Assembly: GCF_900205755.1 (NCBI RefSeq)
Contig: NZ_OANS01000004.1
Span: forward strand, 124,001-188,000
Length of the DNA: 64,000 bases
From: Polynucleobacter meluiroseus
GTDB taxonomy: Bacteria > Pseudomonadota > Gammaproteobacteria > Burkholderiales > Burkholderiaceae
Direction of reading: 5' to 3'
The position numbers were made by a program, and so were the translations under genes. Numbering within the stretch: position 1 is the stretch's first letter; each line of letters opens with the position of its first letter. This document shows positions 6,832-15,207 of the stretch, one piece after another. The notes beneath the pieces are model-generated. The model worked only from the letters and a program-made list of their open reading frames with translations, did no database searches and had not been told where the DNA came from.

Positions 6832-7449
6832 ATGTTTGCATTAAATAAGCACCCCGAAAAAAACCTGATTCGCTTGCAGTTGAGCCAAAACTCGGTCTTA
6901 AAGAACTTAGACTCCATGGCGCTGGCCGACTTAGAGCGGGATTTAGTTATTTCCGATCTTAAGAAATCAGAAATCCTGCTCAATCAAGGTGATCATCAGA
7001 TGGAGCAGTACTTTGTTTTGGATGGCATTCTGAAAAGGATTGTTTCCAGTCCGGATGCCAAAGAAATGATTTTACGGTTTGCCATCGAAAAAGAGATTGA
7101 AACCAGCTACGCGGCATGGCGACTCAAGACCGCCGCCCCATATAGTATTGCTTCGGTAACCAAGGCGCGAGTAGCCCGTATGCCCATGAAAAAATGGGCT
7201 GAATTTCTGGAAGAGCATCCGCCTTTGAAGGAAAGCTTTGAGTTTGAGGTCATGCGCTTGATGAGTGAAATCATGGCTCATACCATTACCCTGCATATGC
7301 TCGACGCGCCTGGCCGAGTAGAGCGATTTTTGCGCAAATATGAGGATTTATTTGAGCTACTCCCTAAAAAAGAGTTGGCTGCCTACCTCAATTTATCTCC
7401 CGAAACTCTGAGTCGTCTTAAAACGAAGCACAAAGAGCTGTTCGTATAA
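6832..7449 (+). CDS. Crp/Fnr-family transcriptional regulator, candidate oxalate regulator
   Basis: A 205-residue DNA-binding regulator with an N-terminal cyclic-nucleotide-binding-type beta barrel (about residues 20-120) and a long dimer helix (about 125-165). The C-terminal helix-turn-helix (about 177-199) ends almost at once, without the usual beta wing. The recognition helix reads SPETLSRLKTK, and E191, S194 and R195 occupy the places that in E. coli FNR (E209, S212, R213) read TTGAT half-sites. The protein contains no cysteine, so it cannot hold an FNR-type iron-sulfur cluster. It lies directly upstream of oxc in the same direction. TTGA-N6-TCAA palindromes precede oxc, the second frc and oxlT, so it probably controls oxalate use. 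The ligand is unknown. Confidence 0.8.
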   Translation: MFALNKHPEKNLIRLQLSQNSVLKNLDSMALADLERDLVISDLKKSEILLNQGDHQMEQYFVLDGILKRIVSSPDAKEMILRFAIEKEIETSYAAWRLKTAAPYSIASVTKARVARMPMKKWAEFLEEHPPLKESFEFEVMRLMSEIMAHTITLHMLDAPGRVERFLRKYEDLFELLPKKELAAYLNLSPETLSRLKTKHKELFV

Positions 7450-7666: not shown

Positions 7667-9376
7667 ATGACAACAGATAATCAGCAAAACGTAGCTCTCA
7701 CCGATGGCTTTCACCTTGTAATCGATGCGCTCAAGGCGAATGACCTCGACACCATTTTTGGCTTGGTTGGTATTCCGATTACCGATCTATGCCGCCTTGC
7801 ACAAGCTGAGGGCTTGCGATTTATTGGTTTCCGTCATGAGCAGCATGCAGGTAACGCTGCCGCGATTGCTGGTTACATGACACAAAAACCGGGCATTTGC
7901 ATGACTGTTTCTGCACCTGGTTTTTTGAACGGTTTGACTGCACTCGCCAATGCGACGGTGAACTGCTTCCCGATGATTTTGATTAGTGGCTCAAGCGAAC
8001 GTGAAATCGTGGACTTGCAGCAAGGCGACTACGAAGAGATGGATCAGCTCAATGCTGCCAAGCCATACGCTAAAGCTGCTTATCGTATTAATCACATTGA
8101 AGATATCGGCATTGGCTTTGCCCGTGCGATTCGTGCAGCCGTTTCAGGTAGACCTGGTGGCGTATACCTCGACTTGCCTGCACAGTTGCTAGCGCAAACT
8201 ATGCCAGCGGAAGAGGCGAAGAAGACGATTTTCAAAGTGATCGATCCAGTGCCCCGTCAAATTCCTGCACCAGATGCGGTTGAGCGCGCTCTTAATGTTT
8301 TGAAGAATGCGAAGCGCCCATTAATTTTGTTGGGCAAGGGCGCAGCTTATGCCCAAGCAGATGACGACATTCGTGCCTTGATTGAAAAATCAGGCATTCC
8401 TTATTTACCTATGTCGATGGCAAAAGGTCTCTTGCCAGATACGCATCCTCAATCTGCCTCTGCTGCTCGCTCTTATGTTTTAGCTGAAGCTGATGCGGTG
8501 TTGTTAGTTGGTGCGCGTTTGAACTGGTTGTTGGCTCACGGTAAAGGTAAAACTTGGGGTAAAGAGCCTAAGAAATTTATTCAGATTGATATCCAAGCGA
8601 ACGAAGTGGATAGTAACGTCCAAATCGATGCACCATTGATCGGCGATATTGGCTCTTGCGTTGGCGAACTCCTCAAGGGAATCGCTGCGGTTCCTAAGCC
8701 AAGTGCTGAGTGGATTGCTGCAATCACTGAAAAGAAAGACAAGAATTTAGCCAAGATGGCTGAAACCTTGGCTAAAGAAGCGGCGCCAATGAACTTCCAT
8801 GGTGCCTTGCGCGTGATTAGGGATGTGATTAAAAAGAACCCAGATGTGAACTTGGTGAACGAAGGCGCTAACACGCTCGACTATTGCCGTGCCATCGTTG
8901 ATATGTACAAACCGCGTAAACGCTTTGATTCTGGTACTTGGGGAATTATGGGTATCGGTATGGGCTACGCAATTGGTGCTTCAGTTATCAGCGGTTTACC
9001 TACCATCGCTGTCGAGGGTGATAGTGCCTTTGGTTTCAGCGGCATGGAGCTGGAAACCATTTGCCGCTACAAGTTACCTATCACTACCGTTGTATTCAAC
9101 AACAATGGTGTTTACCGTGGCACGGATATCAATACTAGCGGTAGCGATGATCTCGCGCCAACCGTATTTATCAAAGATGCGCGTTACGATAAGATGATTG
9201 AAGCATTTGGCGGTGTTGGCTACTATGTCACCACCCCTGCAGAGTTAGAAGCTGCTTTAACGGAATCATTAGCGGCTGGTAAGCCTGCCCTCATTAATGC
9301 AGTGATTGATGAGACAGCGGGAACAGAGAGTGGTCGTTTGACGAACTTAAACCCCACTTCAGCAGCCCATAAATAA
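7667..9376 (+). CDS. oxc: Oxalyl-CoA decarboxylase
   Basis: This thiamine-diphosphate enzyme converts oxalyl-CoA to formyl-CoA and carbon dioxide in the cytoplasm, the central step of oxalate breakdown. It has 569 residues, like the Oxalobacter formigenes enzyme (568). Visible signatures are the catalytic glutamate (E58) in FRHEQHAG, the LTVSAPGF-like stretch, [21 protein letters not shown], and the thiamine-binding motif starting [13 protein letters not shown] (about 451-463) and ending in NNN (478-480). It is followed after 37 bases by frc, so the two probably form an operon. An activator-type promoter lies about 140 bases upstream. Closely related 2-hydroxyacyl-CoA lyases exist, but the similarity to Oxc is strong along the whole length. 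Confidence 0.96.
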
Positions 9377-9413: not shown

Positions 9414-10664
9414 ATGACTAAACCACTAGACGGCATTCGTATTATTGATTTCACACACGTTCAGGCTGGCCCTGCATGTACTCAATTGTTGGCTTGGTAC
9501 GGCGCTGATGTTATTAAAGTTGAGCGTCCAGGTTCTGGCGACGTAACTCGTAGCCAATTACGTGACGTACCAGATGCAGATGCTTTGTATTTCACGATGT
9601 TGAACGGCAACAAGCGTTCTTTAACTTTGGATACCAAGACGCAAGAAGGTAAAGAAGTGCTCGAGAAGTTGATCAAAGTTTCTGACGTGATGGTTGAGAA
9701 CTTCGGTCCTGGCGCATTAGACCGTATGGGTTTTAGCTGGGCGCGCATTCAAGAACTGAACCCAAAAATGATCATGGCTTCGGTTAAAGGTTTTAGCGAT
9801 GGCCACTCATACGAAGACTTAAAAGTCTACGAAAACGTTGCACAGTGTGCTGGTGGCGCCGCTTCTACTACTGGTTTCTGGGATGGTCCTCCTACTGTTT
9901 CTGCTGCTGCCTTAGGTGATTCCAACACGGGTATGCATTTGGCAATTGGTATTTTGACTGCATTAATGCATCGTCAAAAAACCGGCAAAGGTCAAAAAGT
10001 TTCCTGCTCAATGCAAGATGCCGTTTTGAATTTATGCCGCGTTAAATTACGTGATCAACAGCGTTTGGACAAAATTGGATACCTCGAAGAGTATCCACAG
10101 TATCCACACGGTTCATTTACTGATGTCGTACCTCGCGGCGGTAACGCTGGTGGTGGCGGTCAGCCAGGTTGGGTTTTGAAGTGTAAGGGCTGGGAAACTG
10201 ATCCTAACGCCTATATCTACTTCACCATTCAAGGCCATGCTTGGGAGCCAATCACTAAAGCAATCGGCAAGCCAGAGTGGGCAACCGATCCAGCGTACAT
10301 GACTGCAGAAGCACGTCAAGATAAGATTTTTGATATCTTCGCTACGATTGAAGAGTGGCTCAAAGATAAGACGAAATACGAAGCAGTAGATATTCTCCGT
10401 AAGTTCGATATTCCTTGCGCACCAGTTCTTTCGATGAAGGAATTGGCGAATTCACCAGACCTGCGTAAGAGCGGTTCGATTGTTGAAGTTGACCACAAAG
10501 TACGTGGTAAATATTTGACTATCGGTAGCCCAATCAAGTTCTCTGACTTGACAGTAGAAGTTGGTCCATCACCAGTGTTGGGTGAGCATACTAACGAAGT
10601 GTTGGCAGACCTTGGTTACGATGCAGCAGCGATTAGCAAGTTGCATGAAGCTAAAGCCGTTTAA
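9414..10664 (+). CDS. frc: Formyl-CoA:oxalate CoA-transferase (first copy)
   Basis: A class III CoA-transferase that moves CoA from formyl-CoA to oxalate, giving oxalyl-CoA for Oxc and free formate. It has 416 residues. The catalytic aspartate is D169 in ALGDSNTG, the same number as in the O. formigenes and E. coli enzymes, and the glycine loop GGGGQPG that closes the active site is intact. The motifs [29 protein letters not shown] and KVYENVAQC also match Frc. It follows oxc closely, behind the ribosome site AAGGAG, and is followed by a strong terminator. The protein is about twelve residues shorter than the O. formigenes form, because of a gap in the loop before VPRGGNAG. Confidence 0.96.
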
Positions 10665-10685
10665 TTAGCCTTAAAGTTGGTAAAG

Positions 10686-10713
10686 AAAAGCGCTCCTAAC
10701 GGGGCGCTTTTTT
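10686..10713 (+). terminator. Rho-independent terminator after oxc-frc
   Basis: AAAAGCGCTCC, a TAAC loop and GGGGCGCTTTTTT form a stable GC-rich stem followed by a T run. It lies 22 bases behind frc and closes the oxc-frc transcript before the PAS gene. Confidence 0.9.
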
Positions 10714-10751
10714 ATTTCACCATTGCTTGAGAAACTCAGTAGACTAAGAAT

Positions 10752-11180
10752 ATGAAAACTCACATTGATCTGAATCAACTCATAGAGGGCGTGTGCGATG
10801 CCATTATTGTGGCTGATGCCCAGCAAAAAATAGTTCTTTGGAATGCGGCAGCCACGCGCATTTTTGGTTATTCCGAAGTGGAGGCTTTGGGGCAGCATCT
10901 TGACATGATTGTTCCCGAACGCCAACTGCATCGACACAATGAAGGCTACGCTAAATCCATGAGCACCGGCACTACTCGCTATGGAAGTTCACTATTAAAG
11001 GTTCCTGCTAAGCATAAAGACGGTCACCCGCTATCGATCGCATTTACTGTGGGGATGCTGTTCGATGAGCGGCATCGAGCCACGGGGGTGGCGGCTGTGA
11101 TTCGGGACGAAACTGAGCGTTTTGCCGAGGAGCGGGCTTTAAAAAAGCGTCTTGCAGATTTGGAAACGCCCAGTTCATAA
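10752..11180 (+). CDS. Single PAS-domain protein in the oxalate block
   Basis: A 142-residue protein consisting almost only of one PAS domain (about residues 5-125: EGVCDAIIVADAQQKIVLWNAAATRIFGYSEVEALGQ, then the PERQLHRHNEGY segment and the VAAVIRDETER end), followed by a short helix. PAS domains sense small molecules, redox state or light. No kinase, diguanylate cyclase or DNA-binding domain is attached, so any output must come through a partner. It has its own space between the frc terminator and the second frc operon. The position suggests a link to oxalate or C1 sensing, but nothing in the sequence proves it. The histidine-containing PERQLHRHNEGY region recalls haem-type PAS proteins. 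Confidence 0.75.
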   Translation: MKTHIDLNQLIEGVCDAIIVADAQQKIVLWNAAATRIFGYSEVEALGQHLDMIVPERQLHRHNEGYAKSMSTGTTRYGSSLLKVPAKHKDGHPLSIAFTVGMLFDERHRATGVAAVIRDETERFAEERALKKRLADLETPSS

Positions 11181-11263
11181 CTAGACTGGGTTGATTGGTA
11201 TGCACCCTTGGCGGGCTGAAGATCAAGCCCCGCCCCATTTGTTAGTATTTTTGGCTGGTAAAA

Positions 11264-11277
11264 TTGAACTAATTCAA
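11264..11277. promoter_or_regulatory. FNR-like palindrome upstream of the second frc operon
   Basis: TTGAACTAATTCAA has five-base arms and a four-base centre, fitting the TTGA-N6-TCAA pattern at the oxc and oxlT promoters. It ends 28 bases before the start codon. That is too close for an activator at -41 with a promoter downstream, so it may overlap the promoter and act differently, or match by chance. Confidence 0.4.
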
Positions 11278-11305
11278 AATTTCAATCTTTATTAGGACTT
11301 AAATC

Positions 11306-12553
11306 ATGGCAAAAGCATTAGAGGGGGTCAAAATCCTCGATTTCACACACGTTCAGTCTGGGCCTACTTGCACGCAATTACTAGCTTGGTTTGGCGCAGA
11401 TGTTATCAAGGTAGAAAAATCCGGTGAGGGTGATGCTACCCGCGGTCAATTACGCGATATTACCGATGCGGATAGCCTGTATTTCACAATGCTTAATCAC
11501 AATAAACGCTCTATTACTGTCAACACTAAGACAAAAAGCGGTAAAGAGATTCTTGAGCGACTCATTAAAGAGTGTGATGTGCTGGTAGAAAACTTTGCAC
11601 CAGGCGCATTGGATCGCATGGGTTTTACTTGGGAGCGGATTCAGGAGCTCAATCCTATGATGATCTTGGCATCTGTCAAAGGTTTCGGTCCAGGGCCTTA
11701 CGAGGATTGCAAGGTGTACGAGAACGTGGCGCAATGCGCTGGCGGCTCGGCATCCACAACGGGATTTGATGATGGGCCACCGATGGTAACAGGGGCTCAA
11801 ATTGGCGATAGCGGTACAGGTCTACATTTGGCACTAGGTATTGTGACGGCACTCTTCCAACGCACTCATAGTGGTCGCGGTCAAAAAGTATTGGTAGCAA
11901 TGCAGGATGCCGTACTGAATTTGTGTCGTGTCAAACTGCGCGATCAGCAACGTTTAGAGCGGAACGGTGTGATGAAAGAATATCCACAATACCCTAACGG
12001 GACTTTTGGCGAGAGCGTACCGCGCGCAGGCAACGCCTCTGGCGGTGGTCAGCCGGGCTGGATTCTGAAATGCCAAGATTGGGAAACCGATCCTAATTCC
12101 TATATCTATGTCGTTGTTCAGGCTCCTGTCTGGGAGGCAATTTGTAAGGTGATTGGTAAAGAGGATTGGATTACCGATCCCGGCTATGCAACCCCTACGG
12201 CACGCTTACCCCGGTTGATGTCGATTTTTGCTGAGATCGAAAAATGGACGATGACTCATACTAAGTTTGAAGTAATGCAAACCCTAAATCAATATGACAT
12301 TCCCTGTGGACCGATTTTGTCCATGAAGGAGCTTGCAGATGATGAGTCCCTGCGCGCCACAGGGACTGTGGTTGAAGTTGACCATCCGATTCGCGGCAAG
12401 TATCTCACCGTGGGTAATCCTATCAAGTTGTCTGATAGCGAAACTGAAGTCACGCGCTCACCCCTGCTCGGTGAACATACCGATGAAATTCTATCTGACT
12501 TAGGATTTAGTACAGATGAATTAATCTCTTTGCGCCACGAGAAGGTGATTTAA
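11306..12553 (+). CDS. Formyl-CoA:oxalate CoA-transferase paralogue (second copy)
   Basis: A second class III CoA-transferase of 415 residues, clearly a paralogue of the frc at 9414 and alignable along its whole length. The catalytic aspartate is D168 in QIGDSGTG. The glycine loop reads SGGGQPG rather than GGGGQPG, and the asparagine after the catalytic Asp-Ser is replaced by glycine. The CoA-binding and dimer segments ([37 protein letters not shown]) are kept. It is followed after one base by a formyltransferase gene, so the two are one operon. It may use another CoA donor or acceptor, such as succinyl-CoA or acetyl-CoA with oxalate. The family call is sure; the exact substrate pair is not. 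Confidence 0.88.
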
Positions 12554-12554
12554 T

Positions 12555-13487
12555 ATGCGGATCGCTTTGATTGGAAGTGCTGATTTTGGTAAGGCTGCGT
12601 TAGAAGCCTTTATGGATCGGGGTGACGAGATTGTTGCTGTCTTCTGCCCACCCGATAATCCAAAGTCCACTAAGCCAGAAGTCCTTAAGGAGGCTGCGAT
12701 AGCACGGGGGCTCACGCCTCTACAGTTTGCTTCCTTAAAGGGATCTGACGCCTCTCAGGCGATGATTGATAGTAAAGCCGACATTTGCGTCATGGCCTAT
12801 GTCACGCAGTTTGTGCCGCAAGAGTTGGTCAAATTGCCAAGGCATGGCACGATTCAATATCACCCCTCTTTGCTGCCAAAATATCGAGGTCCCAGCGCAA
12901 TTAACTGGGCAATTGCCTTAGGGGAAGAAAAAACCGGTTTAACGATCTTCCGCCCCTCCGATGGTCTTGACGAAGGTGCCATCATCTTGCAAAAAGAAGT
13001 GCCGATTGGGCCTAACGATAGTTTAGGCAAGATCTACTTCGAGCATTTGTTTCCCTTGGGAGTGCTGGCATTGCTTGAGGCTGCAGATCTAGTGGTTGCG
13101 GAACAGCATCAAGAGCACATTCAGGATGAGTCACTCGCTAATTACGAAGGTTGGTTTGATAGTAGGGCTGCACAAATTCATTGGACGACACACATTAATC
13201 AGATTTATAACCTCATTCGGGCGTGCAATCCAGCGCCGGGTGCGTGGACTCAATTTGGCGAACAAAAAGTACAGATCTACGATTGCCATAAGCACATCGC
13301 TCAAACGTTTTCTGCGGTTAAGGGTAAGGTCGGTGAAGTGACGCAGATTACCTTGCATTCTTTCTTTGTTGCCTGCCAAGGTGGTCAGATTGAAGTGCTT
13401 AAGGCAAAAGGGGCAGCAGGAAAAGTCAGTGGCGCCGAATTAGCCAATGAGTTAAAGCTCGAAGTGGGGCAGTTCTTTACTCTGTGA
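12555..13487 (+). CDS. Stand-alone formyltransferase / 10-formyltetrahydrofolate hydrolase-like protein
   Basis: A 310-residue protein of the Fmt fold. It matches best the N-terminal hydrolase domain of eukaryotic 10-formyltetrahydrofolate dehydrogenase (YHPSLLP-RG-SAINW, then DGLDEG, ANYEGW, NLIRACNPAPGAWT), followed by a C-terminal OB-like domain. The catalytic histidine (H103) and aspartate (D139) are present, but the position held by asparagine in methionyl-tRNA formyltransferase is glutamine (Q101). It is therefore probably not the initiator tRNA enzyme. It forms an operon with the second frc (one base gap). I infer a role moving or releasing the formyl group between formyl-CoA, formate and tetrahydrofolate. 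The direct reaction is unknown. Confidence 0.75.
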   Translation: MRIALIGSADFGKAALEAFMDRGDEIVAVFCPPDNPKSTKPEVLKEAAIARGLTPLQFASLKGSDASQAMIDSKADICVMAYVTQFVPQELVKLPRHGTIQYHPSLLPKYRGPSAINWAIALGEEKTGLTIFRPSDGLDEGAIILQKEVPIGPNDSLGKIYFEHLFPLGVLALLEAADLVVAEQHQEHIQDESLANYEGWFDSRAAQIHWTTHINQIYNLIRACNPAPGAWTQFGEQKVQIYDCHKHIAQTFSAVKGKVGEVTQITLHSFFVACQGGQIEVLKAKGAAGKVSGAELANELKLEVGQFFTL

Positions 13488-13500
13488 GCCGCAAGGCGGA

Positions 13501-15207
<1,707 letters not shown>

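Follow-up and report, generated by a model that had tools for sequence, protein, structure and literature searches.

Gene context and active-site conservation point to a probable formyl-CoA:tetrahydrofolate formyltransferase in a Polynucleobacter oxalate operon

What is a formyltransferase-fold protein doing at the end of an oxalate operon? Pathway schemes usually show formyl-CoA as a carrier confined to the cycle of oxalyl-CoA decarboxylase (Oxc) and formyl-CoA transferase (Frc). In the accessible part of a recent map of oxalate metabolism, the outlets are formate or glyoxylate (PMC12927642). The window, a 64,000-nucleotide stretch of Polynucleobacter meluiroseus DNA, carries genes in the order oxc-frc1-PAS-frc2-ftr, all on the same strand. 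Curated models identified oxc (7667–9376, + strand; TIGR03254, 985 bits against a cut-off of 739), frc1 (9414–10664, + strand; TIGR03253, 728 bits against 504), and frc2 (11306–12553, + strand; 732 bits with the same model and cut-off). The last gene, ftr (12555–13487, + strand), starts with ATG and encodes a stand-alone protein of 310 aa that joins a Formyl_trans_N domain (PF00551) to a Formyl_trans_C domain (PF02911).

The frc2 stop codon (TAA, 12551–12553) is followed by a single base and then by the ftr ATG at 12555; the original prediction had placed the start of ftr one base past the second frc, and a direct reading of the junction bears this out. The one-base gap recurs in 25 of 28 congeners, and stop and start overlap in two more (L032 and L034); L015, also in this junction set, ended before the ftr start and was out of register. 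A Shine–Dalgarno-like AGAAGG, found by eye, falls inside the last part of frc2 (12540–12545, + strand), 9 bases ahead of the ATG of ftr, and AGG also stands at this site across the 28-congener set. Median pN/pS for ftr was 0.12 across 27 congeners (L015 excluded), with synonymous sites near saturation, and the gene is under purifying selection. The open reading frame, the conserved junction, and the low pN/pS together indicate that ftr is a real, selected gene that is probably translationally coupled to frc2.

A promoter and terminator scan of 10600–13700 found signals no more often than in shuffled sequence. By eye, we noted a GC-rich inverted repeat (11210–11234) in the gap between the PAS gene and frc2 that the terminator scan did not call; on the strength of this repeat, frc2 and ftr might form a separate unit. 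The gene between frc1 and frc2 (10752–11180, + strand) encodes a stand-alone 142-aa protein with one PAS domain and no output domain, and it occupies the same place in many or most of the genus loci examined. Upstream of oxc lies a gene for a 205-aa Crp-family-like regulator (6832–7449, + strand). Because two distant loci with ftr (L046:2648–3256 and L137:2408–3025) encode relatives 61–62% identical to this regulator, it may control the pathway.

The original prediction likened Ftr to the hydrolase domain of 10-formyltetrahydrofolate dehydrogenase. A phmmer search agreed, placing the dehydrogenase structure 1s3i (E = 6e-45) ahead of Escherichia coli Fmt (1fmt; E = 2e-34). A profile built from 48 sequences, namely the window protein and 47 proteins from the best 80 of 553 related loci, gave the dehydrogenase (FDH) 278–290 bits, Fmt 201–218, ArnA 151–156, and HypX 79. 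In an IQ-TREE phylogeny, the dehydrogenase hydrolase domain joined the Ftr family, apart from Fmt and the ArnA-like proteins (support 99/98); the tree contained a single dehydrogenase sequence, on a long branch and of uncertain exact placement, and its bootstrap values had yet to converge fully. Judged from these sequence comparisons, the hydrolase domain (ALDH1L1/FDH; PDB 1s3i, 4qpd, and 2bw0) is the nearest characterized relative of Ftr. The fold itself does not discriminate: an AlphaFold2 model of Ftr (mean pLDDT 94.7; built on an alignment of the same 48 sequences) fit Fmt, ArnA, and FDH equally, with the best chains tied within Z scores of 31–34, and only HypX was lower (Z about 21–22, 18–22% identity). 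No NCBIfam model claimed any of five Ftr family members scanned, and of five records with Ftr relatives in a plasmid collection, the best (39% identity) was labeled fmt_2; present annotation thus hides the family. Unlike the dehydrogenase, Ftr is a bacterial protein of an oxalate operon that stands alone, without the carrier and aldehyde dehydrogenase domains, and it shares about 31% identity with its cousin over the aligned model.

Conservation of the active site was examined in 94 family members, comprising the best 80 loci of 553, the window protein, and 13 further proteins. The dehydrogenase counterparts of His103 and Ser105 (codons within 12861–12869, + strand, in an HPSLLP motif) are His106 and Ser108, and that of Asp139 (12969–12971, + strand) is Asp142; all three Ftr residues are present in 94 of 94. 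His103 and Asp139 are the two residues that the original prediction had described as kept. According to the part of PMC4388273 that was available, His106, Ser108, and Asp142 are catalytic in the dehydrogenase, and mutations of Phe89, Arg114, and Tyr200 cut its activity. The Ftr equivalents of the latter three, Phe86, Arg111, and Tyr197, are retained in 86, 92, and 94 of the 94 members, so that Ftr shares with the dehydrogenase both the His-Ser-Asp triad and the Phe/Arg/Tyr residues of the folate site. The two proteins also agree in lacking Asn at position 101, which belongs to the Asn-His-Asp active site of Fmt and which the Fmt, ArnA-like, PurU, and PurN proteins of this genome all possess, and differ in what replaces it: Gln101 in Ftr (12855–12857, + strand; Gln in 89 of the 94 members, Cys in the remaining 5) and Ile104 in the dehydrogenase. 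Both the exchange of the Fmt asparagine for Gln101 and the dehydrogenase isoleucine were as predicted. Nearer the N terminus, Gln9 and Lys13 are typical of the family (86 and 88 of 94, respectively); the window protein has Ala in place of Gln9 (12579–12581), and its residue 13 is encoded at 12591–12593. In HypX, the R9A and Q15A variants were apparently aimed at the CoA diphosphate site, as far as the accessible portion of PMC6802093 indicates, and they fall in an N-terminal stretch comparable to that of Ftr residues 9 and 13, judged without an aligned comparison.

Two precedents suggest what such a protein might do. The dehydrogenase domain passes the formyl group of 10-formyltetrahydrofolate (10-formyl-THF) to the 4′-phosphopantetheine thiol of a carrier domain, according to the section of PMC8748788 available. 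The N-terminal domain of HypX/HoxX uses 10-formyl-THF and CoA to make formyl-CoA, as described with a structure in the accessible part of PMC6802093 and as an experiment recounted in the available text of a review (PMC12134894). Both of these relatives, which do not formylate amines, therefore use a phosphopantetheine thiol. By analogy with these kin, and with Oxc and Frc as neighbors, the evidence points to CoA as the partner of Ftr, an inference for which there are no CoA-site data. HypX differs in retaining its formyl-CoA for CO production through a fused enoyl-CoA-hydratase-like decarbonylase, a domain that Ftr does not have. We consider it probable that Ftr is a free-standing formyl-CoA:THF (10-formyl-THF:CoA) formyltransferase, a judgment that covers both directions. 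Gene family, operon, co-occurrence, conserved active site, and the lack of a formate-THF ligase in the genome are observations on Ftr itself; its activity, CoA partner, reversibility, and direction are inferred. In searches of open-access literature, we found, beyond HypX, no description of such an enzyme and none of a stand-alone gene for it, which is not proof of absence.

Gene neighborhoods outside the genus bear directly on this proposal. A scan of genome_contigs (one genome per species, 84,980 species) yielded for analysis the best 80 of 553 relatives; they were ranked by likeness to the protein of L047, itself an oxalate-operon protein, so the ranking favors oxalate context. Among these best 80 of 553, an frc gene at least 45% like frc2 stood upstream of ftr in the same orientation, no more than 400 bp away, at 61 of the 73 loci with enough flanking sequence, and no frc was found upstream at 11 of 73. 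The frc genes of these loci matched the frc2 paralogue better than frc1. Where 3.3 kb of upstream sequence was available within the same best 80, oxc was present at 42 of 64 loci, an odd thiamine pyrophosphate (TPP) enzyme at 10, and neither at 12. A formate-THF ligase gene followed ftr within 500 bp at 50 of 77 loci of the best 80, which ties Ftr to folate as well as to formyl-CoA, and the full oxc-frc-ftr-ligase quartet, counting either TPP enzyme, was found at 39 of 61. The original prediction of a possible link between formyl-CoA and folate is supported by both checks that could be computed, the co-occurrence with frc paralogues and the existence of a separate fmt beside def; the recurring four-gene operon supports it more strongly than either. 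Most carriers among the best 80 of 553 belong to the Hyphomicrobiales or to other Alphaproteobacteria; the others include Beta- and Gammaproteobacteria, Terriglobia, a Rokubacteriota, a Longimicrobiales, and a Thermoleophilia metagenome-assembled genome. Cultured carriers include Pseudolabrys sp. Root1462 (L074), in which the ligase gene adjoins ftr, and Methylopila sp. Yamaguchi (L066), in which it does not.

Formyl-CoA is also released by 2-hydroxyacyl-CoA lyases. The odd TPP enzyme occupies the oxc slot at ten loci (L065, L078, L108, L122, L123, L124, L127, L128, L129, and L136) and is 25–27% like Oxc. Five of the ten proteins were scanned against NCBIfam; their best matches were PRK05858 and 2-hydroxyacyl-CoA lyase models, below the cut-offs. 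A search of seven of the ten genomes gave no oxc match at E = 1e-100. The enzyme is either an unrecognized oxalyl-CoA decarboxylase or a lyase that releases formyl-CoA from another acid.

Loci with neither oxc nor frc in view came from 14 genomes, one of which (G803) had oxc over the cut-off, while four had oxc matches of 512–525 bits, below it, and nine had no oxc match at E = 1e-100; three of the 14 loci had <900 bp of upstream sequence. At L048, ftr is paired with the ligase alone, and the genome has no oxc at E = 1e-150. With so few oxc genes over the cut-off in these genomes, part of the Ftr family acts independently of oxalate or serves some other function. At two loci without oxc or frc, L119 (1031–1978) and L121 (4303–5250), a 315-aa open reading frame comes after ftr; that of L119 encodes a 2-hydroxyacid dehydrogenase that scores best, though under the cut-off, with the glyoxylate reductase model, which hints at a different C1/C2 setting for ftr. 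Separately, an ADP-forming acyl-CoA synthetase-like protein is encoded directly after oxc-frc2 at L055 (9575–11746), and one of the same type, 68% identical to it, 1.7 kb after ftr at L132 (11591–13717). These proteins of 708–723 aa might provide CoA thioesters once formyl-CoA has been drawn off.

In a sample of the phylum, Ftr was present in 10 of 397 genomes, set apart from the others by a clear drop in score from 231 to 147 bits. Nine of the 10 carriers had oxc over the cut-off vs. 31 of 397 genomes overall, and outside the genus the figures were 4 of 5 vs. 26 of 392 (Fisher's exact test, 7e-5). Ftr is nonetheless optional in oxalate metabolism, as 22 of the 31 oxc genomes lacked it. In 259 genomes of the same taxonomic family outside the genus, nothing scored above about 120 bits for Ftr. 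Not every first-look candidate was scored in these whole-genome searches, and absences are slightly uncertain.

Within the genus, co-occurrence with oxc was strong. With ftr counted as present at E <1e-70 (broken and partial copies included) and oxc when over its curated cut-off, 112 of 151 genomes had both genes, 24 had neither, and 15 were discordant, nine with ftr only and six with oxc only. Two of the ftr-only genomes (G264 and G269) had oxc, frc, and ftr broken together, and G318 retained only remnants of oxc and ftr; the other six were assemblies 74–90% complete. Among the oxc-only genomes, G361 and G412 were 56% and 83% complete, and the remaining four carried a formate-THF ligase gene, which thus occurred in 4 of 6 genomes with oxc and no ftr vs. 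15 of 121 with ftr. In G407 that ligase gene is split in two and contains stops, and in G416 the match is partial; one event within one clade may account for the association of the ligase with the absence of ftr. In G389, where ftr is broken and no ligase gene matched, oxc and both frc genes are intact, and ftr is therefore dispensable at least there. Mostly, ftr has been gained and lost with oxc within the genus. Decaying oxalate clusters also lie near panC/scpA/metG in four single-contig genus genomes (L056, L057, L058, and L060), probably through repeated loss.

Other reactions must be weighed against the proposed one. The common fold and the C-terminal Formyl_trans_C domain would suit a second methionyl-tRNA or sugar-nucleotide formyltransferase; we regard this as scarcely credible. 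Fmt shares the two-domain fold with Ftr at Z up to 34, but Ftr scored 156.2 bits with TIGR00460 (fmt; cut-off 201.5), 135.2 with PRK06988 (316), and 126.1 with the ArnA model (777), and the Asn of the genome's own enzymes is Gln or Cys in all 94 family members. The 1.89-Mb genome (11 contigs) encodes five PF00551 proteins, the other four being PurN, Fmt, PurU (L003), and an ArnA-like PRK06988 protein. Its true fmt adjoins def (peptide deformylase), so ftr is not the sole fmt, the outcome that the original prediction had asked to see. With the tree separating Ftr from both Fmt and the ArnA-like proteins, we rejected Ftr as a sole or second fmt and as a sugar formyltransferase. Identity with PurU was likewise rejected (20.4 bits with TIGR00655 against a cut-off of 285.95, the true PurU being encoded elsewhere in the genome), and Ftr also fell under the curated PurN cut-off. 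A 10-formyl-THF hydrolase (deformylase) that recycles THF and releases formate is improbable. The nearest characterized kin of Ftr is named a hydrolase domain and ligase neighbors would suit formyl-THF turnover, but hydrolysis by that kin in vitro needs nonphysiological thiols at high concentration, as stated in the available part of PMC8748788; purU is already in the genome, and the tight tie to oxc and frc would be left unexplained. Somewhat more improbable still is a formyl-CoA hydrolase (EC 3.1.2.10), an orphan activity placed in oxalate pathways and said to be without a gene in the accessible part of PMC10192776. Gene context does connect Ftr with formyl-CoA, but the folate-site residues of the dehydrogenase are kept, the ligase neighbor indicates folate, and a hydrolase would dissipate the thioester on which the Frc cycle depends. 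Of the options first suggested for Ftr, feeding folate fits the context better than releasing formate.

The rival that comes closest posits the same reaction run mainly in reverse, with 10-formyl-THF and CoA giving formyl-CoA to prime or replenish the Frc cycle. It overlaps the formyltransferase reading, and as an account of the main direction we consider it rather unlikely. The expected energetics count against it, favoring transfer from formyl-CoA to give 10-formyl-THF. So does the distribution of the ligase, with no match in the window's genome and none in 105 of 120 other ftr-bearing congeners; 10-formyl-THF would therefore need other C1 donors here. On the other side, the ligase so often directly downstream among the best 80 of 553 is hard to square with pure assimilation, which would need the ligase only. 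Formate-THF ligase (FTHFS), which is unrelated to Ftr and ATP-dependent, also makes 10-formyl-THF. HypX works in the reverse direction, for CO synthesis, in the part of the review that was available (PMC12134894). Priming has a parallel as well: YfdE, an acetyl-CoA:oxalate CoA-transferase and accessory enzyme of an oxc/frc operon, was suggested to prime oxalate catabolism in the accessible text of PMC3720670, but it belongs to a protein family unrelated to Ftr and involves no folate.

Under the favored formyltransferase reading, the reaction would most likely be formyl-CoA + THF = 10-formyl-THF + CoA and probably reversible. Ftr would bind folate like its dehydrogenase cousin, and Asp139, His103, and Ser105 would help formyl exchange between the CoA thiol(ate) and N10 of THF. 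Oxc would convert oxalyl-CoA to formyl-CoA, the bulk of which would cycle via Frc to formate; oxidation of this formate by formate dehydrogenase would provide energy from oxalate, and Ftr would divert part of the formyl-CoA to 10-formyl-THF for biosynthesis. Searches of the window's genome gave no match for formate-THF ligase and no glyoxylate carboligase over the cut-off, and formate dehydrogenase is present. With this complement, energy from oxalate via Oxc, Frc, and the dehydrogenase and C1 units via Ftr are possible, and in this genome the probable role of Ftr is to channel carbon from oxalate into the C1 pool. As a caution, four Polynucleobacter species, which may or may not carry the operon, were reported as not assimilating oxalate (PMC5018217; also PMC3308952). 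Growth might fail to reveal an auxiliary use of oxalate as a source of energy and C1 units.

Where the ligase is co-operonic, formate and ATP could also yield 10-formyl-THF and then formyl-CoA, which would start or top up the oxalate cycle. We suggest more tentatively, and with less than even confidence, that stand-alone formyl exchange between CoA and folate is a widespread and so far unassigned C1 node, serving ligase-driven formyl-CoA synthesis or, without the ligase, assimilation. Ligase and Ftr could then also refill other formyl-CoA pathways, such as those of loci whose oxc slot holds a 2-hydroxyacyl-CoA-lyase-like enzyme. If Ftr acts as proposed, it would open C1 biosynthesis to formyl groups without a formate-THF ligase, and it would hint at the way in which oxalate users start or replenish their cycle. 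An E. coli C1 auxotroph has been described that obtains C1-THF from formate through ftfL and can be supplied with formyl-CoA by a BKACE enzyme (PMC11961710). Synthetic pathways that make formyl-CoA (Oxc, HACL, BKACE) might likewise gain from Ftr a direct route into serine, purines, and methyl groups.
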